This document shows, piece after piece, positions 10,637-21,470 of a stretch of 64,000 nucleotides of DNA. Position 1 is the stretch's first letter. Every line of letters starts with the position of its first letter. The notes beneath the pieces were generated by a model. That model searched no databases. It had not been told where the DNA came from and was given only the letters and a program-made list of their open reading frames with translations. This stretch comes from Sporomusa sphaeroides DSM 2875. Lineage in GTDB: Bacteria; Bacillota; Negativicutes; Sporomusales; Sporomusaceae. Location of the stretch: contig NZ_CP146991.1 of NCBI RefSeq assembly GCF_001941975.2, forward strand, positions 1,598,524 through 1,662,523, in the 5' to 3' direction. The position numbers and the translations under genes were made by a program.

Positions 10637-11878
10637 GTGGTGCATATTGCATATTCGTTTAATAGCCAAACCCAATACCGGCTGGATTACCTGATTGAAC
10701 ACTGTATTTTGGCAATGGTCTTCTGCTTACCCTTGTCGCTGGATGCCGCCACTCTGTTTTTAGGAGTGGGAACAGCCTTATGGGTTGGTAAGATGATAGT
10801 AACCAGAAAACTGTTGTTCAAACGCACCCCTTTTGATGAACTTATCCTGCTTTTCGTCATTTTATCTGCTGCTTCTATTGCCGCATCGCCTGACAGGAAT
10901 TTTAGTTTTTACAACTATTACCACTTAATGGGGCGCTATATAGTCAGTTACTATCTTGTTGTTAACAATCTGCATTCACTGCGTCAACTGCAGCGACTGG
11001 TTTGGTCGGTGCTGATTTCGGCTGTACTGGTTGCTTTCTATGGATTTTATCAATACATTCAGGGAGTGGATATATCCACCTTTCACTGGGTGGATGGCGA
11101 GCAGTTTCCTGATCTTAAAATCCGGGTATTTTCCACACTGCAAAACCCGAATCTGCTGGCCGGTTTCCTGGTTGTGGTGATGTCGCTGGCTGTTGGTTTA
11201 GGGTTGCATACAGAATCAATGCCGGGGAAATTACTGTTATTTGCGCTTGCTGCTGTCTTTGGGGCGTGTTTGGTGCTTACCTACTCTCGCGGTGCCTGGC
11301 TGAGTGTTTTAGCCGTTGCTGCCATCTGTGCTCATTTATACAACCGCAAGGTACTGTGGCTATTTTTAATCATTCCGCTGATTGCATTTTTTGGTCATGA
11401 TGCCGTGATGGAACGGCTGCTGTCTGTCTTGAATCCCACAGACACTTCCTCGACACTGCGGATTGCACTATGGGAAAGCACACTGGCCATGATCATGGAC
11501 AAGCCTTTGCTGGGTATCGGTTGGGGAGCTTATTGGCAGGTATACCCGGAATATGACTTTTTTTTAAATAATCCTGACGCCCGGATTGTTCATGCTCATA
11601 ATATGTATCTGCACATTGCGGCAGAGATCGGAATTCCCGGTCTTTTGGCCTTTTTGGCAATTATTTTTGGTCACGCCAAAAAAGCCGTTGATATTTTAAG
11701 CAAGACCAACAATCGCATGATAGCCGGGATTATATTCGGAGTAATGGCAGCTGTCTTAGGTTTAGTGCTCAATGGTTTCACCGATTATATTATGTTTAAT
11801 GTGCAGCTGTCGATGTTGTTCTGGCTGCTCAATGCCATCATTATTGTTGTGTGGGAAGGCAATTATCGTTATAATTGA
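10637..11878 (+). CDS. O-antigen ligase-like polytopic membrane protein
   Basis: A 413-residue protein with about ten to twelve predicted membrane spans. It belongs to the WaaL/Wzy_C superfamily, whose members transfer or polymerise lipid-linked glycans at the outer face of the inner membrane. The typical large periplasmic loop with the Wzy_C core is seen around residues 250-330 (RIALWESTLAMIMDKPLLG, GWGAYW, HAHNMYLHIAAEIG); the H-x-H-N motif is family-typical. The start is GTG at 10637 (a second GTG follows directly), with a weak GTAGGTGA site. An O-antigen-type ligase would fit an outer membrane, as in Negativicutes, but Gram-positive relatives also carry such proteins, so the substrate is unknown. 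Confidence 0.8.
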   Translation: MVHIAYSFNSQTQYRLDYLIEHCILAMVFCLPLSLDAATLFLGVGTALWVGKMIVTRKLLFKRTPFDELILLFVILSAASIAASPDRNFSFYNYYHLMGRYIVSYYLVVNNLHSLRQLQRLVWSVLISAVLVAFYGFYQYIQGVDISTFHWVDGEQFPDLKIRVFSTLQNPNLLAGFLVVVMSLAVGLGLHTESMPGKLLLFALAAVFGACLVLTYSRGAWLSVLAVAAICAHLYNRKVLWLFLIIPLIAFFGHDAVMERLLSVLNPTDTSSTLRIALWESTLAMIMDKPLLGIGWGAYWQVYPEYDFFLNNPDARIVHAHNMYLHIAAEIGIPGLLAFLAIIFGHAKKAVDILSKTNNRMIAGIIFGVMAAVLGLVLNGFTDYIMFNVQLSMLFWLLNAIIIVVWEGNYRYN

Positions 11879-12054
11879 GAGAATCTTATCGACCATTAAG
11901 CGAACGGCAGCCTGAACTTGTTGAAGTTGTTGTTTGGGTTTACAATAATTCCCACAAGAATTTTTTGGAAAAAACTAATTATTTTGCAATTTGCAGCAGG
12001 ATTTATAATACGCAACGCGAATATACAAAAATATTAGTGGAACTTTCGACAATG

Positions 12055-12076
12055 AGGGGCATCCCCTTAATTTTTT
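12055..12076 (+). terminator. Possible small terminator before the hydrogenase operon
   Basis: A short hairpin AGGGG-CAT-CCCCT is followed by TAATTTTTT. It may end the ligase transcript. The stem is only five pairs, so it may be weak. Confidence 0.4.
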
Positions 12077-12086
12077 CTTGTAAGTT

Positions 12087-12104
12087 TTGTGAAATTTCGC
12101 ACAA
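12087..12104 (+). promoter_or_regulatory. Candidate Rex operator, hydrogenase operon
   Basis: TTGTGAAATTTCGCACAA matches the Rex pattern TTGTG-N8-CACAA in both half sites. It ends 30 bases before the first gene of the operon, and rex itself lies at the far end of the same region. Binding is inferred. Confidence 0.65.
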
Positions 12105-12134
12105 ACATCAAATTTGGCTCATGGAGGTGCCGTA

Positions 12135-12515
12135 GTGAAACTGGCACAAGTAAGAAATGTGTTGGATGCCGAGGTACTCTGCGGAATGGAATGGCTTGAT
12201 CGAGAAGCAAAAAGCGCATGTGGCGCAGACCTGATGAGTGATGTTTTGGCCTTTACCAAAGAACAAGCACTTTTGTTAACAGGCCTGACAAACATTCAAG
12301 TAATTCGTACTGCTGAAATGAGCGACTTAGTAGCCATATTATTTGTACGGGGAAAACGGCCGGGACCAGAAGTAATTGCATTGGCCGAAATTATGGAAAT
12401 ACCTTTGTTATCGACAGACCGGCAAATGTATGAAGCCTGCGGCATTCTGTACAAAGACGGGCTCAAGGGAAGTTCGCAAAAGGAGGAAACTCCGTGCTTC
12501 CACAACCGGGAATAG
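12135..12515 (+). CDS. DRTGG-domain protein, first copy
   Basis: A 126-residue protein made of one DRTGG domain, a fold also found in phosphotransacetylase N-termini and near CBS domains, thought to bind a small ligand. The start is GTG at 12135 with GGAGGTG six bases ahead; an upstream in-frame ATG at 12120 overlaps that site. It is the first gene of the hydrogenase operon, and its end overlaps the next gene by 22 bases. Proteins of this kind recur beside [FeFe]-hydrogenase operons in Clostridia and Negativicutes. The function is not established; a regulatory ligand-binding role for the sensory module is an inference. A second copy lies at 14341. Confidence 0.75.
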   Translation: MKLAQVRNVLDAEVLCGMEWLDREAKSACGADLMSDVLAFTKEQALLLTGLTNIQVIRTAEMSDLVAILFVRGKRPGPEVIALAEIMEIPLLSTDRQMYEACGILYKDGLKGSSQKEETPCFHNRE

Positions 12516-12922
12516 TCTTAGAATTTAGATTAGTAGGCGCCGATTTTGAAGGCGCCGGTGAAGCATCCAGCAAAATTAAACGTACCTTGCAGCAACTGGG
12601 GGTACGTCCGGAGATCATCAGGCGAATTGCTGTCAGTGCCTATGAAGCAGAGATGAACGTAATTATTCATGCTTTACGGGGTGTTATCCGGGCTGAGATT
12701 TATTCTGACCGAACTGCATTGACAGTTGATGATGAAGGTCCGGGGATTCCTAATATTGACCTTGCCATGCGGGCCGGGTATTCTACCGCTCCTGATCATA
12801 TTCGCGAAATGGGTTTTGGTGCAGGAATGGGGTTACCCAATATGGCGCGCTGTACAGATGAATTTGACATCCAAACCGATCTAGGAAAGGGAACAAAGCT
12901 TAGTATGGTCATTTACCACTGA
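12494..12922 (+). CDS. RsbW/SpoIIAB-like ATP-binding protein
   Basis: A 142-residue GHKL ATPase-fold protein of the anti-sigma-factor/serine kinase type. The N box is YEAEMNVIIHA (near residue 50), the G1 box DDEGPGIPNID (near 80), the G2 box GFGAGMGLPNM (near 105). The start is GTG at 12494 with AGGAGG eight bases ahead, inside the end of the DRTGG gene. In B. subtilis such proteins bind sigma factors or phosphorylate antagonists. Here it sits directly before the sensory hydrogenase-like protein, so it may be the output of a redox or H2 signal; no sigma factor or antagonist is in the operon. It may have lost kinase activity. Confidence 0.8.
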   Translation: MLPQPGIVLEFRLVGADFEGAGEASSKIKRTLQQLGVRPEIIRRIAVSAYEAEMNVIIHALRGVIRAEIYSDRTALTVDDEGPGIPNIDLAMRAGYSTAPDHIREMGFGAGMGLPNMARCTDEFDIQTDLGKGTKLSMVIYH

Positions 12923-12959
12923 AATAAGTGTGTATTTTATAGATTGAGTGGTGAAAGTG

Positions 12960-14306
12960 ATGGAAGCGCGTTTTCACTCAGTGCGGTTAATGTCGGAACG
13001 GTGCCAGGGCTGTGTAAATTGCACGAAACGCTGTCCAACGGAAGCTATCCGCATCCGTGGCGGCAAAGCTCAGATAACCTCTTCCCGCTGTATTGATTGC
13101 GGTGAATGTATCCGGCATTGTTCTGCTCACGCTAAAACGGCCGTGACTGATGATTTAAGCGACCTGAAAAAATTTAAACATAATATTGCTTTGCCTGCGC
13201 CGTCCCTTTATGGTCAGTTTAACCCTGAGATTCCGGTTAGGGCCATTTTGTCAGGCTTATTAAAACTGGGATTTGACGAAGTATTTGAAGTAGCTCACGG
13301 AGCAGAAATTATCTCACTGGCAATTAGAGATTACATGAAGCGCACTGATATTGCCCGTCCGGCCATTTCCTCGGCTTGCCCGGCTATTGTCAGACTGATT
13401 CAGGTCAAATTTCCTGAGATTATTAATCATATCGTACCTTTTGACGCTCCTGTCGAGGTGGCCGGAAGATTGGCCAGGGCTGAGGCTGAGCGGCTCTATG
13501 GTCTTGATCCGAAAGATATTGGCATCTGGTTCATTACCCCGTGTCCGGCGAAAATGACCGCAGTATATCAGCCTCTTGGCACAGAAACATCCAGTATTAG
13601 CGGTGCCATTGCCATCAGTAAAATATATCATGATTTATTTAAAGTGGTAACCGCCGATGTTCAAGACGCCCGCCGTCAAGCTTCCTGGCTGGGTGTCGGC
13701 TGGGCAGTGTCGGGTGGCGAGACCGCTGCTGTAGGTGTGGATAACGTACTGGTAGTAGACGGCATTTACCAGGTTATCAATGTGCTGGAGCAAGTTGCCT
13801 TAGGTAAACTCAAAGATGTTGACTATATTGAAGTATTGGCCTGTACCGGAGGCTGTGTAGGCGGAGCCCTGACGGTGGAAAATCGTTATGTAGCCGAACA
13901 CCGGATGAAACAGCGAATTGAAAAGAAAAAAATGCTAGACCCCAAGCTTGGCAGACTGCCACGCACCGATTACTCAGAATTCGAACTGGGGGTGGCCGGG
14001 CGGCGGGCGATTGAACCTAAACCGGTATTGCGGCTTGATGCCGATATTTCTAAAGCAATGTCCAAAATCGAAATCATGGATGCAACGTTAAAATGCTTGC
14101 CTGGTCTTGATTGCGGTTCCTGTGGCTCGCCTAACTGCAAAGCGTTGGCTGAAGATATTGCCCAGGGATGTGCTAGTCTGACCGATTGTGTATTCATCTT
14201 GCGCAACAAAGTGCGGGATTTGGCATATGAAATGGTTAACCTGGCTGCCAAGCTGCCGCCACCGCTTGATAAAGATCAGGATGATCAAGAGGAGCAAGCT
14301 GAATAG
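12960..14306 (+). CDS. Sensory-type [FeFe]-hydrogenase-like protein
   Basis: A 448-residue protein: two N-terminal [4Fe-4S] motifs (CQGCVNCTKRCP, CIDCGECIRHC), an H-cluster domain (about 70-340) and a C-terminal FeS domain (CLPGLDCGSCGSPNC). The four H-cluster ligand cysteines are present: SSACPA, TPCPAKM and ACTGGCVGG. In the first motif the residue that relays protons in catalytic enzymes (first Cys of TSCCP) is Ala, as described for the sensory HydS of Thermotoga. It is therefore more likely a sensor than an enzyme. ATG at 12960 has GGTGA ahead; GTG at 12948 is the alternative. It lies between an RsbW-like ATPase and DRTGG/PHP genes, at the head of the catalytic hydrogenase operon. Confidence 0.82.
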   Translation: MEARFHSVRLMSERCQGCVNCTKRCPTEAIRIRGGKAQITSSRCIDCGECIRHCSAHAKTAVTDDLSDLKKFKHNIALPAPSLYGQFNPEIPVRAILSGLLKLGFDEVFEVAHGAEIISLAIRDYMKRTDIARPAISSACPAIVRLIQVKFPEIINHIVPFDAPVEVAGRLARAEAERLYGLDPKDIGIWFITPCPAKMTAVYQPLGTETSSISGAIAISKIYHDLFKVVTADVQDARRQASWLGVGWAVSGGETAAVGVDNVLVVDGIYQVINVLEQVALGKLKDVDYIEVLACTGGCVGGALTVENRYVAEHRMKQRIEKKKMLDPKLGRLPRTDYSEFELGVAGRRAIEPKPVLRLDADISKAMSKIEIMDATLKCLPGLDCGSCGSPNCKALAEDIAQGCASLTDCVFILRNKVRDLAYEMVNLAAKLPPPLDKDQDDQEEQAE

Positions 14307-14340
14307 TTAAATTAGCAAATCAGTATTGGGAGGAGTATTT

Positions 14341-14682
14341 GTGACTGTACAAGAGATAGCGGACGCGTTGTCGCTAACAGTAGTATCAGGCCAGTCCAAC
14401 CTCAACAAAAAAATCAGCGGCGGGTATACGTCTGATCTGCTGAGCAATGTCATGGGGCAGGCGCAGGCTGGTAATGTATGGGTTACTATGCAAGGTCACC
14501 AGAATATTGTGGCTGTGGCGTTACTGGTGGGATTGACGGCGATTATTGTTGCCGGTGGCGTGGAGCCTGATGAGGATGCTTTGCGCAAAGCGTCGACAGA
14601 AGAAATCGTTATTCTTACCACACCACTGACTGCATATGAAGTGGTTGGCCGTTTATACCAGCTGGGTATAAAGGGAGAATGA
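14341..14682 (+). CDS. DRTGG-domain protein, second copy
   Basis: A 113-residue single DRTGG-domain protein, a paralogue of the protein at 12135. It starts at GTG 14341, five bases after GGGAGGAG; a TTG at 14326 upstream overlaps that site. Features seen are a VQEIADALSL start, a glycine-rich stretch and an alternating beta/alpha pattern (VAVALLVGLTAIIVAGGVEP). Its stop overlaps the ATG of the PHP gene (ATGA). Two DRTGG proteins flanking the sensor suggest that they form a heteromer or bind different states of the sensor, but this is a guess. Confidence 0.75.
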   Translation: MTVQEIADALSLTVVSGQSNLNKKISGGYTSDLLSNVMGQAQAGNVWVTMQGHQNIVAVALLVGLTAIIVAGGVEPDEDALRKASTEEIVILTTPLTAYEVVGRLYQLGIKGE

Positions 14683-15422
14683 TCAGGCGGTTTGTGGCCG
14701 ATCTTCATGTACATACACTTTTGTCGCCCTGTGCTGCCATTGAAATGACGCCGCGTAACATTGTCTGGCACGCACAGCAGCACGGTGTTGATATCGTTGC
14801 CATTACCGATCATAACGCTTGTGATAATGTCGTGGCCGCCCTGGAGGCGGCAAAAGGTACTGATGTAACTATACTGCCGGGTATGGAAGTGGAAAGCAAA
14901 GAGGAAGTACATCTCGTTGTTTTATTCGAAAAAATGCGACAACTCAAAGCGTGGGAACAATTTACCCAGCAGCATATGTCGGGGCGCCTGAATGATGCTG
15001 AACGTTTTGGCGCTCAGTTTATTGTTGACGCAGAGGATAATTTTGTCGCGGAAAAAACCGAAATGCTTTTAGCCTCGTTGACTGCAGGCGTTGCAGAAAT
15101 CTCCGCCCAGGTAAAAGAGCTTGGCGGAATATGTATTGCCAGCCATGTTGACAGGCCAGTATACAGCATTATTTCACAACTAGGTTTTATTCCACCAGAT
15201 GTTGAGCTAGCGGCGGTGGAAGTATCAAGGAATATGAGTGTAGAGCATGCGCCGCAGCGTATTCCCGCTATTGGCTGTCTGCCAATTATAACAGCTTCCG
15301 ATGCCCATGTAATGGACGATTTTATTAGTGGTCCAAAAACTGTTTTTCATATTGAGCAACCGACATTAGCAGAAATCCGGCAGGCATTATTAGCTCAAAA
15401 CTTGCGAAAGGTGGTGGTTTAG
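14679..15422 (+). CDS. PHP-domain metal-dependent phosphoesterase
   Basis: A 247-residue PHP-domain protein. Metal-binding motifs are DLHVHTLLSPC near residue 7, ITDHNACDN near 45, an E at MEVESKEEVH near 70, SHVDRP near 155 and SDAHV near 205, all placed as in YciV/TrpH-like phosphoesterases. Such enzymes cleave small phosphoesters, including nucleotides. It is the last gene of the sensory module (ATGA coupling with the DRTGG gene) and is followed after 54 bases by hydC. A role in making or removing a signal nucleotide for this module is possible but untested. Confidence 0.85.
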   Translation: MIRRFVADLHVHTLLSPCAAIEMTPRNIVWHAQQHGVDIVAITDHNACDNVVAALEAAKGTDVTILPGMEVESKEEVHLVVLFEKMRQLKAWEQFTQQHMSGRLNDAERFGAQFIVDAEDNFVAEKTEMLLASLTAGVAEISAQVKELGGICIASHVDRPVYSIISQLGFIPPDVELAAVEVSRNMSVEHAPQRIPAIGCLPIITASDAHVMDDFISGPKTVFHIEQPTLAEIRQALLAQNLRKVVV

Positions 15423-15476
15423 CCACTATTTACTAGCACGAGGAACAAATGTGATTTTTCAAAGGAGGAGTTAAAC

Positions 15477-15983
15477 ATGAACAGCGACAAAGAAACTAAA
15501 TGCTGCTGTGGTGGCGGTGAAGCGGGCAAGCTGGCTATGGACCAGGTAGAAGTAGTTCTTGCCAAATACCATGGTGTAAAGGGAGCTCTTATTCCGGTAT
15601 TGCAGGAAGCGCAAAATGCTTATGGTTATCTGCCCAGAGAAGTTATTCAATATATTGCTGAAAAAATGGGAATTCCGGTCAGCCAGATTTACGGTGTAGT
15701 AACCTTCTACGCCCAATTCCACCTCAATCCCCGGGGTAAGAACATTATTCGCGTCTGCCAGGGGACTGCCTGCCATGTGCGCGGCGCTAAGAGCATTCTT
15801 ACAGCGCTGGAAGATAGCTTGCAGGTTAAAGCCGGCGGCACCACTCCGGATCTCAAATTTACATTGGAAACCGTAGCCTGTATCGGTGCTTGTGGTTTAG
15901 CGCCAGTACTTATGGTTAATGACGATACCCATGGTCGCCTAACTCCTGAGGTGATTCCTGATTTATTGTCACAATACGCCTAG
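15477..15983 (+). CDS. hydC: Bifurcating hydrogenase subunit HydC (NuoE-like)
   Basis: A 168-residue thioredoxin-like [2Fe-2S] subunit of the NuoE/HndA family. Ligands are CQGTACHVRGA and CIGACGLAP in the C-terminal half; an all-helical N-terminal part carries GALIPVLQEAQNAYGYLP. A cysteine-rich N-terminus (CCCGGG) is unusual and could bind metal or simply be a tail. With HydB and HydA it forms the electron-bifurcating complex that makes H2 from NADH plus reduced ferredoxin, or the reverse. AAAGGAGG precedes the ATG. Order hydC-hydE-hydD-hydB-hydA equals that known from Acetobacterium woodii. Confidence 0.92.
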   Translation: MNSDKETKCCCGGGEAGKLAMDQVEVVLAKYHGVKGALIPVLQEAQNAYGYLPREVIQYIAEKMGIPVSQIYGVVTFYAQFHLNPRGKNIIRVCQGTACHVRGAKSILTALEDSLQVKAGGTTPDLKFTLETVACIGACGLAPVLMVNDDTHGRLTPEVIPDLLSQYA

Positions 15984-15994
15984 AGTTGTAGCCC

Positions 15995-16558
15995 ATGCGT
16001 GAAATATCACTTCATATACTTGACTTGGTCCAAAATTCGATCGAAGCTGAGGCGACGTCTGTTAAACTTGAAATCATTGAAGATACAGTCAATGATCGTA
16101 TGATCATCAGAGTTTCTGATAATGGCCGGGGTATGAATGAAAAAATGCGTCAATTAGTCATTGATCCTTTTATAACCACCAGGACTACCCGACGAATAGG
16201 CTTGGGATTACCGCTAATGGATATGTCGACTAAACGTTGTGACGGATATTTAGACATTAATTCCATACCGGGACAAGGTACTGTAATTGAGGCTATGTAC
16301 CGGCACAGCCACTATGATAGGCCGCCAATGGGAGACTTGCCGGAAACCATTAAAAGCATACTTGTCGCTAATCCGGAGTTACATTTTTTTTATTCTCATA
16401 CTTTCAATGATCAAAGCCTTTCAGTTTCCTCCCAGGAGATCGCCGATATTTTGGATGGTATACCCTTAACGCAACCGGATGTGTTAATTTGGTTGGACGG
16501 GTACTTGTCAGAAAGCATAGACAATTTGTACGGAGGTGCTAAAAATGAAAACGATTGA
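15995..16558 (+). CDS. HydE-like GHKL ATPase
   Basis: A 187-residue protein with a histidine-kinase-type ATPase domain: N box DLVQNSIEAEA (near residue 12), G1 box DNGRGMNEKM (near 45), FITTRTTRRIGLGLPL (near 62-78). There is no His phosphorylation domain and no receiver. The C-terminal 70 residues have no motif that I recognise. It lies between hydC and hydD as the gene called hydE does in A. woodii, where its product is of unknown function. This hydE is not the radical-SAM maturase of the same name. It overlaps the next gene by 14 bases. Confidence 0.82.
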   Translation: MREISLHILDLVQNSIEAEATSVKLEIIEDTVNDRMIIRVSDNGRGMNEKMRQLVIDPFITTRTTRRIGLGLPLMDMSTKRCDGYLDINSIPGQGTVIEAMYRHSHYDRPPMGDLPETIKSILVANPELHFFYSHTFNDQSLSVSSQEIADILDGIPLTQPDVLIWLDGYLSESIDNLYGGAKNEND

Positions 16559-16910
16559 AGATTTGAAACGTCTGCGCGAACAGCTTAAGACAAAAAACAA
16601 CCTGCGCCATGACGGAGGCATTCAGGTAATTATTGGCATGGGTACTTGTGGTATCGCTGCCGGCGCAAGAAAAGTTTTGACTGCTGTATTAGATGAAATT
16701 GCCAAACGGAAGCTTGAAGATGTTAAAGTTCGCCAAACAGGTTGTATCGGTATGTGTGAACAAGAAGTGCTGCTTGACGTTGTACGTCCTGGCGAACCGA
16801 GGATAACCTACGGCAAAGTTACGCCGGCAGATGTCCCCAAAATTATTGCCGAGCATGTAGTTAATGGCAGAATCATACAAGAACTTGCTATCGGTAAAAT
16901 CATCGAATAA
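16545..16910 (+). CDS. hydD: HydD-like small ferredoxin-fold subunit
   Basis: A 121-residue thioredoxin-like [2Fe-2S] protein. Visible cysteines are one in GMGTCGIAAGAR (near residue 30) and two in TGCIGMC (near 67-71), so only three of the usual four ligands are present: the first position reads Gly. In A. woodii the equivalent HydD copurifies with the bifurcating hydrogenase. ATG at 16545 with GGAGGTG ahead; a GTG at 16536 overlaps that site. The gene sits between hydE and hydB. Whether it still binds a cluster is open. Confidence 0.8.
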   Translation: MKTIEDLKRLREQLKTKNNLRHDGGIQVIIGMGTCGIAAGARKVLTAVLDEIAKRKLEDVKVRQTGCIGMCEQEVLLDVVRPGEPRITYGKVTPADVPKIIAEHVVNGRIIQELAIGKIIE

Positions 16911-16938
16911 TTTTGGTAGAGTAACAGGAGGGGATCGT

Positions 16939-18729
16939 ATGGAACATATCAGAGCGCATGTGCTCATTTGTGCCGGCACTGGCTGCGTGTCATCAGGCTC
17001 GAAAAAAGTGGAAGCCGCATTTCAGGCAGAGTTGGTTAAAAAAGGGTTGGATAAAGAAGTAAAAATTATTGAAACCGGCTGCCATGGTTTTTGTGAAATG
17101 GGCCCGCTGGTTATCATTTATCCTGAAGGTACATTCTATGTTCGGGTTCAGGAAAGCGACGTGCCTGAACTGGTGGAAACCCATCTTTACAAAGGGCGTA
17201 CTGTAGAACGCTTACTATTCAAAGAGCCTAGTTCTCATGAAGCAATTCCTAGCTATAATGATATTGATTTTTATAAAAAACAAATGAGAATAGTACTGGC
17301 AAACTGTGGTCACATCAATCCTGAGGATGTTAATGAATATATAGCCGAAGGCGGTTATGAAGCTTTAGGCAAGGCTTTGGAAACTATGAAGCCTGATGAA
17401 GTTGTTGAAGAAGTTAAAAAGTCCGGGCTGAGAGGCCGGGGGGGCGGCGGTTTCCCGACTGGTATGAAATGGGGCTTTGCCCGCAGTGCACCGGGCACGA
17501 AGAAGTATGTTGTCTGTAATGCTGACGAAGGTGACCCTGGTGCATTTATGGACCGCAGCGTGCTTGAGGGCGACCCGCACCGTATTATTGAAGGCATGGC
17601 AATCTGCGGGTACGCCATTGGCGCAGATGAAGGCTATGTTTATGTTCGTGCAGAGTATCCGCTGGCCATCAAACGCCTGAGAATAGCCATTCAGCAAGCA
17701 GAAGAACTGGGGCTGTTAGGCGAAAATATTTTAAACTCAGGCTTTAACTTCAGGCTCAAGATCAAAGAAGGTGCCGGCGCTTTTGTCTGCGGTGAAGAAA
17801 CAGCGCTCTTGGCTTCCATCGAAGGCAAACGCGGTATGCCGCGCCCACGTCCGCCATTCCCTGCTATTTCCGGACTGTGGGGCAAACCTACTAATATCAA
17901 TAATGTTGAGACCTTTGCCAATGTGCCGCAAATTATCACCAGAGGTGCCGATTGGTACGCATCTATCGGTACGGAAAAAAGTAAAGGCACCAAGGTATTT
18001 GCCCTTACCGGCCGTATCAATAATACCGGCTTGGCTGAAGTTCCCATGGGTATTACCATGCGCGAAATTATCTATGGTATTGCCGGCGGTATTCAAGGCG
18101 GCAAGAAGTTTAAAGCAGTGCAAATCGGCGGTCCATCCGGCGGATGTCTGCCTGAGCATATGCTGGATTTGTCGGTAGACTATGACTCACTCATTAAAGC
18201 CGGCGCCATGATGGGGTCAGGCGGTTTGGTTGTAATGGACGAAACCACCTGTATGGTTGATGTTGCGAAGTTTTTCCTGAACTTTACCCAAGCTGAATCT
18301 TGCGGCAAATGTACTCCTTGCCGTGAAGGCACCAAGCGTATGCTGGAAATCCTTACCCGGATTACCGAAGGACAAGGCCGCGAAGAGGATATTGCACTCT
18401 TAGAGTCTCTGGCCAAGAACATTAAGGCTACGGCTCTTTGCGGTTTGGGGCAAACGGCTCCCAACCCGGTACTTTCCACCTTGCATTATTTCCGGGATGA
18501 ATACGAAGCCCATATCAAAGATAAACGCTGTCCGGCCGGTGCTTGTACCAATCTGCTGGAATACAGCATTAACGATACCTGTAAAGGCTGCGGCTTGTGC
18601 AAAAAGGCATGTCCGGTGGAAGCAATCAGCGGTGAGAAGAAAGAACAGCATGCGATTGATCAGGCTATATGCATCAAATGTGGTGCCTGCTTTAGCAAAT
18701 GCCCGTTCAAATCAATTGTTAAAGGATAA
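16939..18729 (+). CDS. hydB: Bifurcating hydrogenase subunit HydB (NuoF-like, NADH and FMN)
   Basis: A 596-residue NuoF-like flavoprotein. The N-terminal thioredoxin-like [2Fe-2S] domain (CAGTGCVSSGS; TGCHGFC) covers residues 1-110. The NADH/FMN core follows (GRGGGGFPTGMKW near 180, ADEGDPGAFMDR near 200, GEETALLASIEG near 285). Its [4Fe-4S] site is SCGKCTPCREG near 455, and a C-terminal ferredoxin domain has two [4Fe-4S] motifs (CKGCGLCKKACP, CIKCGACFSKCP). This is the electron-bifurcating/confurcating subunit that meets NAD(H) and distributes electrons to ferredoxin and HydA. ATG at 16939 with AGGAGGGG ahead. Confidence 0.95.
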   Translation: MEHIRAHVLICAGTGCVSSGSKKVEAAFQAELVKKGLDKEVKIIETGCHGFCEMGPLVIIYPEGTFYVRVQESDVPELVETHLYKGRTVERLLFKEPSSHEAIPSYNDIDFYKKQMRIVLANCGHINPEDVNEYIAEGGYEALGKALETMKPDEVVEEVKKSGLRGRGGGGFPTGMKWGFARSAPGTKKYVVCNADEGDPGAFMDRSVLEGDPHRIIEGMAICGYAIGADEGYVYVRAEYPLAIKRLRIAIQQAEELGLLGENILNSGFNFRLKIKEGAGAFVCGEETALLASIEGKRGMPRPRPPFPAISGLWGKPTNINNVETFANVPQIITRGADWYASIGTEKSKGTKVFALTGRINNTGLAEVPMGITMREIIYGIAGGIQGGKKFKAVQIGGPSGGCLPEHMLDLSVDYDSLIKAGAMMGSGGLVVMDETTCMVDVAKFFLNFTQAESCGKCTPCREGTKRMLEILTRITEGQGREEDIALLESLAKNIKATALCGLGQTAPNPVLSTLHYFRDEYEAHIKDKRCPAGACTNLLEYSINDTCKGCGLCKKACPVEAISGEKKEQHAIDQAICIKCGACFSKCPFKSIVKG

Positions 18730-18790
18730 ACTTGCCGGTTAACCACCGGTAATACCCATAATGATTGGGAGAAGAGAGGGTGACACGACG

Positions 18791-20518
18791 ATGGAAATGG
18801 TTAATATAACAATCGATGGACAGAAAGTAGCTGTGCCGAAAACATCGACTGTTTTGGACGCTGCACTTTCGCTTGGAATAAAAGTTCCGACTCTGTGCTA
18901 TCATCCTGAGCTGCGCGTAGAGGGCGCCTGCCGGGTATGTATGGTAGAGGTTGAAGGCGCTCGCAGTTTGGTTGCGTCTTGCGTTTATCCGGTCAACGAG
19001 GGAATGGTTGTTCGCACTAATACCGCGGCTGTCCGTGAAGCGCGCAAGACAGTAGTGGAGCTGCTGCTGGCCAACCACCCGACTGACTGCTTATCTTGTC
19101 AACGCAATTTGAATTGTGAACTGCAAACTATAGCAGCCGACGTTGGTGTTAGAGAAATTCGTTTTGACGGTGAAAAGAAAAACTATCCGCTTGATGCCAA
19201 GAATCCGTCTTTGGTTCGCGACCAGAGCAAATGTATTTTGTGCGGCCGTTGTATTCGTGCCTGCAGCGAACGTCAGGGTGTGCATGTATATAGCTTTGCT
19301 AACAGAGGTTTTAATACCACCGTTGTTCCCGCCTTTGATTTGGGGTTAGACGAAGTTTCCTGTACGTACTGCGGTCAATGTGCCGCCGTATGCCCGACAG
19401 GTGCTATTGTTGAGAAAGACGATACCGAGGCCGTATGGGCAGCCATCAATGATTCGTCAAAACATGTAATTGTGCAGACGGCTCCTGCTGTTCGCGTAGC
19501 CTTGGGTGAAGCTCTTGGTTTAGCCAACGGCTCTATTGTTACCGGCAAAATGGTGGCCTCACTCAAGCGGTTGGGCTTTGACAAAGTATTTGATACTAAT
19601 TTTAGTGCCGACCTTACTATCTGGGAAGAAGGCTCAGAGCTTATTGACCGCTTGACTAACGGCGGCAAACTGCCCATGATTACCTCCTGCAGCCCAGGCT
19701 GGGTTAACTACATCGAATTGAAATACCCTGACCTTTTGGACCACCTGTCCACTGCGAAGTCACCGCAACAAATGTTTGGCGCACTGGCCAAGACCTATTA
19801 TGCCGAAAAAGTCGGTATTGATCCTAAAGATATTGTTTCAGTATCGATTATGCCTTGTACTGCCAAAAAAGCTGAGGCAGCCCGTCCTGAAATGAATTCC
19901 AGCGGCTATCAGGATGTTGACTACGTTTTGACAACCCGTGAATTAGGCCGCATGATTCGTGAAGCCGGCATCACCTTTAACAATTTACCTGAGACTGAAT
20001 TTGATGCGCCGCTTGGCGTTGGTTCAGGTGCCGGCGTGATCTTTGGTGCTACCGGTGGTGTAATGGAAGCTGCTCTCCGGACAGTTGCCAAGATGGTATC
20101 AGGCAAAGAACTTGACAATATTGAGTTTGAGGCCGTACGCGGGATGAATGGCATTAAAGAAGCTTCGGTGCCGTTAAAAGAAGGCTTAACCGCTAAAGTT
20201 GCCATAGCTCATACGTTGGCCAACGCCCGGGTAATCCTGGAAAAAATTCGTGCCGGCGAAGCTGATTATCATTTTATTGAGATCATGGCTTGTCCGGGTG
20301 GCTGCTCTGGCGGCGGCGGACAACCGATTATTACTTCAGCCGAACACCGGCAAAAACGCATTGATGCTATTTATGAGTGCGACAAGTGCTCAGAACTGAG
20401 AAAATCACATGATAATCCGGCGGTTAAAGAACTCTATGACACTTATCTGGGAAAACCGCTTGGTGAAAAATCACACCATCTCCTTCATACCCACTATCAT
20501 CCGCAAAAGAAATGCTAA
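18791..20518 (+). CDS. hydA: [FeFe] hydrogenase catalytic subunit HydA
   Basis: A 575-residue catalytic hydrogenase, the H2-forming or H2-oxidising subunit. N-terminal [2Fe-2S] domain (CYHPELRVEGACRVC), His-Cys3 cluster (HPTDCLSC), two [4Fe-4S] motifs (CILCGRCIRAC, CTYCGQCAAVC), then the H-cluster domain: TSCSPGW (near 300), MPCTAKKAEAARPEM (near 357), ACPGGCSGGGGQP (near 500). The first motif has Ser where CpI of Clostridium has its cluster-binding second Cys (TSCCP). A Cys/His-rich tail follows (CDKCSE ... HHLLHTHYHPQKKC). The N-terminal 215 residues resemble those of FdhA. ATG at 18791 has GAGAGGG ten bases ahead. Last gene of the operon. Confidence 0.95.
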   Translation: MEMVNITIDGQKVAVPKTSTVLDAALSLGIKVPTLCYHPELRVEGACRVCMVEVEGARSLVASCVYPVNEGMVVRTNTAAVREARKTVVELLLANHPTDCLSCQRNLNCELQTIAADVGVREIRFDGEKKNYPLDAKNPSLVRDQSKCILCGRCIRACSERQGVHVYSFANRGFNTTVVPAFDLGLDEVSCTYCGQCAAVCPTGAIVEKDDTEAVWAAINDSSKHVIVQTAPAVRVALGEALGLANGSIVTGKMVASLKRLGFDKVFDTNFSADLTIWEEGSELIDRLTNGGKLPMITSCSPGWVNYIELKYPDLLDHLSTAKSPQQMFGALAKTYYAEKVGIDPKDIVSVSIMPCTAKKAEAARPEMNSSGYQDVDYVLTTRELGRMIREAGITFNNLPETEFDAPLGVGSGAGVIFGATGGVMEAALRTVAKMVSGKELDNIEFEAVRGMNGIKEASVPLKEGLTAKVAIAHTLANARVILEKIRAGEADYHFIEIMACPGGCSGGGGQPIITSAEHRQKRIDAIYECDKCSELRKSHDNPAVKELYDTYLGKPLGEKSHHLLHTHYHPQKKC

Positions 20519-20544
20519 AAAAAGATGTCCGCAAGGACATCCCG

Positions 20545-20580
20545 GGCTGTCGACAAAGTATTGTCGGCAGCCTTTTTTTT
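20545..20580 (+). terminator. Terminator of the hydrogenase operon
   Basis: GGCTGTCGACA / TGTCGGCAGCC (20545-20555 with 20562-20572) is followed by eight T. A second hairpin GATGTCC / GGACATC lies just ahead at 20524-20541. Confidence 0.93.
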
Positions 20581-20825
20581 CTGCTTAACAGCAGGTAAGA
20601 GTATAACTAATTTTCCCGGATAAGGATCGCACCGGCTTGTTTTTTCTACAGGGATTCGTGTAGCTTGTTTTTACATAAAATAGATTATATGTGAAATAAT
20701 ATAACAAATCTAGGAGTTTATTACTAAAAATAGCAGGATTTTAAAATACAAGTGAGAATAGAATACAAGTATGTGAAAATAAACCGCTTGGATGAGCGTT
20801 GACTATTGTGCTAGGGAGAGTTGTT
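20581..20825 (+). promoter_or_regulatory. rex upstream region with weak Rex-like site
   Basis: AT-rich leader without a gene. At 20690-20706, TGTGA-N7-TAACA resembles a Rex site, but its spacing is one base longer than the usual six, so self-regulation of rex is only possible. The ribosome site AGGGAGAG is at 20813-20820. Confidence 0.35.
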
Positions 20826-21470
20826 ATGAAAGAAAGCAAAGAAAATGCAGTAATTTCTAAAGCTACGATTGACCGGTTGCCGCTTTATTACCGTACACTT
20901 AAGCTAAGTCAGGAAGAAGGCATAGAGATAATATCTTCTGATGAATTGGGGCGGAAGATTGGTGTTACGCCGGAACAGATACGTAAGGATTTATCAGCCT
21001 TTGGTGAGTTCGGCAAAAAAGGTGTAGGCTATTATGTGCGCGAGCTTATGCGCAATATTGGCGAGATATTGGGGCTTAACCGTAAATGGAATATTGCCAT
21101 TTGTGGTGTTGGGCATTTGGGCTGGGCTTTGGCCAACTATGCGAATTTTTCACCGCAAGGCTTCCACCTGCAGGCTATTTTTGATATTGATCCTGACAAA
21201 ATCGGGCGTTATATAAATGAAGTAGAGATTTTCCATGTTAGCCGGATGAAGGAAATAGTGACTGAACGGGACATTCAAATTGGGATTATCACCGTGCCGA
21301 TGGAATTTGCCCAAAGTACTGCCACACAACTTGTAGAGGCCGGTATTAAAGGGATATGGAATTTTGCCCCGATTAAAATAAATGTGCCTGATACGATTCA
21401 TGTAGTCAGTGAAGATTTATCGGTGGGATTAAGCAGTATGTCTTATTACCTTTCCCGTCAAAACGGATAA
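20826..21470 (+). CDS. rex: Redox-sensing transcriptional repressor Rex
   Basis: A 214-residue Rex protein. It has an N-terminal winged-helix domain (about 1-80) with the recognition helix in TPEQIRKDLSAFGEFG, then a Rossmann domain that senses NADH/NAD+ (GVGHLGWALANY near 93) and a C-terminal domain-swapped helix. Rex represses fermentation and redox genes until NADH rises. ATG at 20826 with AGGGAGAG ahead; a TTG start 27 bases upstream lacks a site. It directly follows the hydrogenase operon, and sites that fit Rex occur at 12087, 33462 and 46235. Confidence 0.95.
   Translation: MKESKENAVISKATIDRLPLYYRTLKLSQEEGIEIISSDELGRKIGVTPEQIRKDLSAFGEFGKKGVGYYVRELMRNIGEILGLNRKWNIAICGVGHLGWALANYANFSPQGFHLQAIFDIDPDKIGRYINEVEIFHVSRMKEIVTERDIQIGIITVPMEFAQSTATQLVEAGIKGIWNFAPIKINVPDTIHVVSEDLSVGLSSMSYYLSRQNG

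Follow-up and report, generated by a model that had tools for sequence, protein, structure and literature searches.

Group D (M2e) [FeFe] hydrogenases have been reported near kinases and bifurcating hydrogenases since 2012 at least, when Cthe_0335, Athe_1292 and others were classed as M2e and described as poorly characterised, with kinases nearby (Carere 2012, PMC3561251). In this group the proton-relay cysteine (C299 of CpI) is replaced, usually by Ala (PMC10407848), and the residues discussed for it, in the numbering of TamHydS of Thermoanaerobacter mathranii, are A137, E252, E289, D265 and residues of the C-terminal cluster (PMC10407848, PMC13104023). TamHydS shows an H2-induced structural change, and under H2 one N-terminal cluster but not the C-terminal one is reduced (PMC13104023). 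How signal transduction works in group D without a PAS domain has been raised as a question (Land 2020, PMC8163306). In a 64,000-nucleotide (nt) stretch of the genome of Sporomusa sphaeroides DSM 2875 (the window; contig NZ_CP146991.1, 1,598,524 to 1,662,523), a protein of this type, here called HydS, is encoded third among five genes that precede a catalytic hydrogenase (window positions 12135-15422). Comparison with related loci suggests that these five genes and hydE form a co-inherited signalling cassette with three natural protein pairs and an exchangeable sensor. The cassette and the hydrogenase genes beside it are as follows, in window positions.

12135..12515, + strand: DRT1, a stand-alone DRTGG domain protein (Pfam PF07085, 37.1 bits, cut-off 25.2)
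12494..12922, + strand: RsbW/SpoIIAB-like Ser/Thr kinase with catalytic Glu51 and Asn55 kept (HATPase_c_2)
12960..14306, + strand: HydS, group D (M2e) [FeFe]-hydrogenase-like sensor (Fe_hyd_lg_C; N-terminal [4Fe-4S] pair, H-cluster domain, C-terminal [4Fe-4S] domain)
14341..14682, + strand: DRT2, a second DRTGG protein (Pfam PF07085, 32.4 bits, cut-off 25.2)
14679..15422, + strand: PHP-family phosphoesterase (PF02811, 43.4 bits, cut-off 26.4)
15477..15983, + strand: hydC, NuoE-like subunit of the catalytic hydrogenase, target side (PF01257, 5e-55)
15995..16558, + strand: HydE, a GHKL ATPase and the proposed sixth cassette member (Pfam, fusions and co-occurrence)
16536..16910, + strand: hydD, [2Fe-2S] ferredoxin-like, target side (profile match below the cut-off)
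16864..18729, + strand: hydB, NuoF-like subunit, target side (NCBIfam scan)
18761..20518, + strand: hydA, group A6 NADH-dependent/bifurcating [FeFe] hydrogenase, target side (NCBIfam NF040763, 921.4 bits against a cut-off of 765)

All five open reading frames (ORFs) that an earlier note had placed in 12135-15422 are open and located where it put them, and Pfam and NCBIfam agree with its domain calls for all five genes. Its description of tight overlaps holds for DRT1/kinase and DRT2/PHP, but the other two junctions in this interval are short gaps. The five genes of its proposed unit were confirmed, but the functional unit runs past 15422 and includes hydE (15995-16558), which has so far been counted as a hydrogenase gene and is distinct from the maturase of the same name. 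HydE, the pairing fusions, the HydS-less CBS-type cassettes and the occurrence before Rnf were overlooked in that note.

In Pfam the third gene matched Fe_hyd_lg_C, an N-terminal Fer4 dicluster and the C-terminal FeS domain PF04060; its likely start is the ATG at 12960 rather than the GTG at 12948. We aligned the window protein with those of 80 related loci, the best 80 of 585, which were also used for the neighbourhood counts below. The H-cluster ligands Cys144, 199, 299 and 303 (numbered from GTG 12948) were Cys in 81/81 proteins, and conservation was 1.00 for the other cluster cysteines, eight at the N-terminal end and four at the C-terminal end. The relay position (C299 of CpI) is Ala143 in the window protein and was Ala in 77, Ser in 3, Tyr in 1 and never Cys across the set, while the group D-specific E252 and E289 correspond to window E258 (80/81) and E295 (81/81). 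These residues place HydS in group D (M2e) of the [FeFe] hydrogenases, and because the cluster ligands are invariant and the group D residues kept, cofactor binding is very likely. A sensory-type hydrogenase with complete metal sites, keeping the H-cluster ligands and lacking the relay cysteine, as described in the earlier note, is thus borne out by the sequence. No PAS domain was matched in window HydS at E<=0.01 (Pfam), and PAS-based signalling was rejected on this ground; in this it differs from the group C (M2f, PAS) sensory [FeFe] hydrogenases, which share with it a relay change from Cys to Ala, a location near a bifurcating hydrogenase and a putative role as H2 sensor (PMC10407848, PMC3561251).

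TamHydS is the closest described protein. It has the same domain order as window HydS and is likewise encoded upstream of a bifurcating hydrogenase; A137 (the relay position), S249, E252, D265, E289, C379, C404, D378, D403, K35 and K58 are identical in the window protein, and E122 and K126 are Asp and Arg there. The Thermoanaerobacter wiegelii orthologue (L022) fits the tested TamHydS residue numbers from residue 1. In T. wiegelii the gene after HydS encodes a DRTGG protein, and neither DRTGG protein matched a helix-turn-helix (HTH) domain at E<=0.001. For these reasons the published 'AraC' label near TamHydS, judged from T. wiegelii only, is probably a misannotation, and an AraC-type output, considered for the Thermoanaerobacter orthologue, found no support. 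The cluster data for TamHydS under H2 suggest that HydS may sense two thresholds, one set by H2 and one by a stronger reductant such as reduced ferredoxin.

Other genes of the HydS type were also seen. Solo group D HydS genes outside any cassette occur in L016, L149, L150, L152 and L153; the neighbours in L016, named by reading the sequence, look like DUF364-type and cation-efflux genes. In genome G007 (L151:5231-8703) hydD and a NuoF-like hydB come after a group D HydS while hydA is missing, possibly a different use of HydS. The window genome (G000) holds twelve Fe_hyd_lg_C matches, of which G000:C1:1578392 and 847398 score identically.

The co-occurrence check proposed in the earlier note bore out co-conservation of the five genes. 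At least 2.5 kb lay on both sides of HydS in 64/80 loci, and all four partners were on the expected sides in 56 of these 64. Among the remaining eight, three had no nearby PHP gene (in L078 it was displaced by an inserted ORF), two had DRTGG-kinase-HydS only, two kinase-HydS only and one none of the partners. hydC/hydE lay within 3 kb downstream of 43 of the 56 complete cassettes; in L061 and L083 the hyd genes are divergent and upstream of the cassette. Kinase and HydS were adjacent on the same strand in 66/66 pairs, with a median gap of 32 nt (66 chosen genomes with listed places).

The same association was found when whole genomes were counted. Both HydS and the kinase were present in 21/22 genomes of the window's order, the same genome lacking both. 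Among 149 genomes of the phylum, HydS was found in 54, the kinase in 59, PHP in 54 and DRTGG in 62; by genus, the tallies were 102/271 for HydS and 108/271 for the kinase. In a set of 398 genomes, 162 had kinase and HydS, 1 HydS alone, 10 the kinase alone and 225 neither. In the HydS-only genome the HydS of the cassette lies where a contig ends (L146), and in one kinase-only genome HydS is cut by a contig end (L144); the inspected loci do not include the kinase-only genomes G286, G300 and G321. Co-inheritance of kinase and HydS, as seen in these sequences, appears to be new here.

The kinase had spIIAB as its best NCBIfam match (4.4e-14), under the equivalog cut-off: it scored 52.6 bits where SpoIIAB requires 135 and 22.5 where RsbW requires 145. 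Alignment to the SpoIIAB profile placed the equivalents of Glu46 and Asn50 at kinase Glu51 and Asn55, and both catalytic residues were kept in 79/79 aligned proteins. An AlphaFold2 model of a natural DRT1-kinase fusion (L026; mean pLDDT 89.1, low-confidence linker 114-129) was compared with known structures by Foldseek, giving SpoIIAB (1til; TM 0.83 by target) for the fold of the kinase and AF1212 (TM 0.79) for that of the DRTGG protein. The model of a HydS-DRT2 fusion had a mean pLDDT of 85.5, weaker in the DRTGG part. A Cys conserved in DRTGG1 (74/75) was considered as a redox ligand specific to HydS loci; this was not supported, as it is kept in 9/10 HydS-less loci. Use of DRTGG together with CBS is known from the regulatory region of CBS-DRTGG pyrophosphatases, which have the same DRTGG fold, but here the domains occur in separate small proteins beside a kinase and a hydrogenase-like sensor.

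The phosphoesterase showed a conserved His/Asp/Glu set across 70 aligned proteins, which includes the metal ligands; with the kinase residues, this agrees with the RsbW-like ATPase and PHP phosphoesterase of the earlier note. Its nearest solved structures in the PDB are EndoQ and PHP phosphoesterases; among the profiles close to it are those of 3',5'-nucleoside bisphosphate phosphatase and RNase Rnm, neither of which reached the cut-off. HydE follows the cassette. A HydE profile search of the 149 genomes gave 58 genomes at E<=4e-54 and then a gap to histidine-kinase-like matches (E from 4.8e-19); the long, histidine-kinase-like ORFs at 4.8e-19 to 1e-15 were excluded from the 58. HydE was present in 58/62 genomes with DRTGG genes and in 0/87 without them. 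PHP and HydE were on the same strand and at most 840 nt apart in 53/53 genomes with both, less than 150 nt in 17 of them. In L104, L106, L108 and L110, HydE adjoins the cassette with no hydB/hydA within the stretch examined. By this distribution HydE belongs to the cassette, an assignment that is new here.

Natural fusions give three candidate pairs, also new here: DRTGG1-kinase, HydS-DRTGG2 and PHP-HydE. DRT1 and the kinase form a single ORF in 12 distinct loci (L025, L026, L085, L118, L119, L127-L130, L132, L133 and L135; L126 and L134, on contigs equal in length to those of L026 and L025, were left out as repeats). Eleven of these lie directly downstream of rex, and the other, L085, is from a Syntrophaceae metagenome-assembled genome of an unrelated lineage. 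The single-ORF form of HydS-DRT2 was seen in L114 and L115, of one family, and that of PHP-HydE in L116 and L117. Two apparent fusions were discarded: a Rex-DRTGG fusion, suggested by REX matches beside the kinase in L025/L026, resolved into a separate full-length upstream rex and a DRTGG-kinase fusion, and long PHP ORFs in L029 and L054 had pointed to a fusion of DRTGG2 with PHP, which was set aside because both loci have a separate DRTGG2 gene.

The sensor appears to be exchangeable. A kinase with an N-terminal CBS pair was found in at least 11 loci from 9 genomes and 5 families (Pfam CBS E 5e-16 to 6e-32; a single CBS stretch passed in L125), a lower bound drawn from selected kinase matches with long open frames. 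HydS was missing in 7 of the 11 and present in 4, and genomes G298 and G373 each carry a CBS-type cassette without HydS plus a DRT1-kinase-HydS locus. The position before other enzymes varies as well. Four loci, all of one family, have the cassette before an Rnf-like operon (L105, L107, L138 and L141), identified by RnfC and RnfD in Pfam for L107 and by the same gene pattern for the others; in L105 and L141 the cassette is reduced to DRT1 and CBS-kinase. L109 has DRT1-kinase in the vicinity of rex and an NfnB-like gene. Judged from these sequences, the exchangeable sensor and the placement before Rnf are both new here. Two further arrangements were noted, with neighbour names assigned by reading the sequences: L050:5925-13323 has, in a row, a histidine kinase, a response regulator, the RsbW-like kinase, HydS and an [FeFe]-hydrogenase-like protein of 637 aa whose C-terminal region is MCP-like, and in L062:9065-9990 kinase-HydS is immediately preceded by a CheW-like gene. 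Both loci lack the two DRTGG genes, and L062 lacks PHP.

Taken together, the presence of a kinase, a phosphoesterase, adaptors and two kinds of input is consistent with a reversible switch. The cassette would be self-standing, made of three pairs and a replaceable input. The H-cluster and iron-sulfur clusters of HydS would let it sense H2 as well as the low-potential electron pool, and HydS would relay its state to DRTGG2; in some lineages a kinase-fused tandem CBS would supply, or add, an adenylate-type input. DRTGG1 would hold and tune the RsbW-like Ser/Thr kinase, and the PHP phosphoesterase with the GHKL ATPase HydE would reverse the mark. HydE sits near PHP and mostly among Hyd subunit genes, which makes it the natural link to the target. 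The output would fall mainly on the adjoining ferredoxin/NAD enzyme, here HydCEDBA, at the protein level and without a dedicated sigma factor. We give slightly less than an even chance to the view that a kinase/phosphatase switch passes H2/redox or adenylate state to ferredoxin/NAD enzymes, mainly the neighbouring one, at the protein level. That this is a new type of cassette, a sigma-independent switch with DRTGG adaptors, interchangeable sensors and post-translational control of HydABC/Rnf, is a slightly more tentative proposal. What the sequences show is the layout of the genes, their joint inheritance and fusions, the kept metal and catalytic residues, the exchange of the sensor and the position before Hyd or Rnf. 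We infer H2 as the signal, an adenylate as the CBS ligand, the kinase substrate and the action of PHP as a protein phosphatase, and likewise HydE as the target link, the protein-level output and Rex control of this operon; the explanation is at its weakest for the output step.

Several observations weigh against a phosphorylation switch of this kind. Co-occurrence and fusion show association, not function, and the genome counts are phylogenetically non-independent, with no correction for relatedness. Apart from TamHydS, no published phosphorylation, binding or H2 response was found for parts of the cassette. PHP enzymes are mostly active on nucleotides or nucleic acids, as judged from the nearest profiles and solved structures. 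Nearly all aligned HydE proteins have Asp instead of Glu at the position that we take to be the usual GHKL base, and HydE may therefore do no more than bind ATP. Thirteen of the 56 complete cassettes have no hydC/hydE within 3 kb downstream, and an adjoining target is therefore not obligatory. The HydS-DRT2 and PHP-HydE fusions each come from a single family. Parts also occur separately: the kinase without a recognised DRT1 (L050, L062 and L148), HydS-DRT2 without kinase, PHP or HydE (L145 and L147), a single DRTGG gene plus HydE, upstream of hyd genes and without kinase, HydS or PHP (L112 and L113), a HydS-less second copy of the kinase where a contig ends (L154), and the solo HydS genes mentioned above. 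The HydS-DRT2-hydD/hydC-hydB-hydA clusters of L145 and L147 (family f26) are second copies; fuller cassettes are in the same genomes (L146 and L148).

The fold of the kinase, its closest profile and its kept catalytic residues would suit partner switching, in which a sigma factor from elsewhere in the genome would be sequestered by the RsbW-like protein, with HydS and DRTGG controlling its release and transcription as the output; the four STAS-domain matches elsewhere in the window genome are potential partners. However, no sigma, STAS or PPM (SpoIIE-type) family was among the 25 commonest of 114 families in the 113 nearest flanking proteins (the 89 rarer families are outside this view), the kinase falls below the SpoIIAB/RsbW equivalog cut-offs and is fused to DRTGG or CBS in some lineages, and the cassette usually lies directly before the enzymes that it would control (43/56). 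To our knowledge, HydE and PHP have no role in partner switching. The anti-sigma-like output proposed in the earlier note therefore finds no support beyond the fold, and we consider this explanation unlikely.

An output through a small nucleotide appears improbable too. PHP would make or remove pAp, Ap4A or a cyclic nucleotide, DRTGG and CBS would read it and the ATPases would respond. Such a reading is favoured by the CBS-kinase fusions, by the profile neighbours of PHP and by the joint presence of DRTGG and CBS in the pyrophosphatase regulatory region (PDB 3l2b/3l31), whose ligands we take to be nucleotides. However, no synthetase was recognised in the cassette, and PHP is absent from L048, L069, L064, L092, L108 and L110, in which the DRTGG genes remain. 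There is very little to be expected of a role in assembly or repair, with HydS as a degenerate-hydrogenase scaffold and the ATPases and PHP loading or servicing HydABC clusters. The nearby hyd genes (43/56), the presence of two ATPases and the interleaving of HydE with subunit genes would suit it, but HydS-less reduced cassettes stand before Rnf (L105 and L141), and the window genome has other NuoF-[FeFe] pairs (L004-L006) yet a single HydE match. In L111:4003-11001 (G055) rex has its full length, DRT1 runs into a kinase remnant and HydS and PHP are fragments; hydC-E-D-B beside this decayed cassette are full-length, and hydA is open to the end of the locus. Decay of the cassette beside hyd genes fits a regulatory rather than a catalytic role.

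Rex would act as a separate transcriptional layer that sets how much of the system is made. Around the operon, the following elements were found.

12087..12104, strand not assigned: Rex-operator-like inverted repeat in the leader, just 5' of DRT1 (12/14 consensus positions)
20544..20573, + strand: intrinsic-terminator-like hairpin with a T run, directly 3' of hydA (longest stem in a scan of 11700-21000)
20799..21470, + strand: rex, gene of the NADH-responsive repressor (PF06971 and PF02629)

As the longest terminator-like stem comes only after hydA, with rex beyond it, the run from DRT1 to hydA reads as one operon, judged from pattern scans only. The clostridial Rex consensus gave no site near the operon head in the window, and the TTGTGAA form gave one, at 12087-12104. 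The count of Rex-like patterns over the whole window was not above chance, so the case for Rex rests on a comparison of 104 loci: the best upstream site reached at least 12/14 at 11/104 cassettes, with about 1.3 expected in shuffles, and 48/104 had no site better than 9/14. Rex sites supported by electrophoretic mobility shift assays have been reported upstream of C. bescii hydrogenase genes, in a table that includes the five-gene Hyd operon from Athe_1295 (PMC6391272), and a conserved Rex site has been assigned to the C. thermocellum hydrogenase operon Clo1313_1885-1881 (PMC8457756). A leader hairpin with a T run at 12053-12069, between the upstream O-antigen-ligase-like gene and DRT1, is predicted to be either the terminator of that gene or an attenuator of the operon. 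Upstream genes for SPOR (9), O-antigen-ligase (6) and DUF6062 (5) proteins recur among the 113 flanking proteins but not across the set, and were rejected as cassette parts.

Group D proteins upstream of bifurcating hydrogenases and one operon gene list are already known. The list is that of Halanaerobium hydrogeniformans Halsa_1862-1871, which shares with the present operon an anti-sigma factor/kinase, iron-sulfur proteins, PHP, NuoE, a histidine kinase, a ferredoxin-like protein, NADH dehydrogenase and hydrogenase; the available text gives annotation only and names no DRTGG domain, module or mechanism (PMC4237134). In C. thermocellum, the trimeric hydrogenase is assigned to Cthe_0338-0342, and the annotation of Cthe_0339 in this run as a histidine kinase (PMC3990059) fits HydE. 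In the literature searched, DRTGG and hydrogenase occurred together in one paper only, on an unrelated AAA-DRTGG protein, and [FeFe] or sensory hydrogenase with PHP, RsbW, anti-sigma or CBS returned, in the portions available, the Halanaerobium gene list and no circuit description. The earlier remark that the circuit is not described therefore holds, within these searches, for the circuit, but not for the operon gene list (PMC4237134) or the location of group D proteins near kinases (PMC3561251), both in print. The available TamHydS literature treats that protein alone.

Many anaerobic bacteria keep this signalling kit together, and its make-up suggests how a probable H2 signal is passed on. 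The cassette names likely partners, their pairing from natural fusions and a transduction core that takes another sensor; with these, the question of signal transduction becomes directly testable. It would help to explain how fermenting and acetogenic anaerobes match the activity of hydrogenase or Rnf to H2 and energy state, with a bearing on H2 yield, interspecies H2 transfer and gas fermentation.

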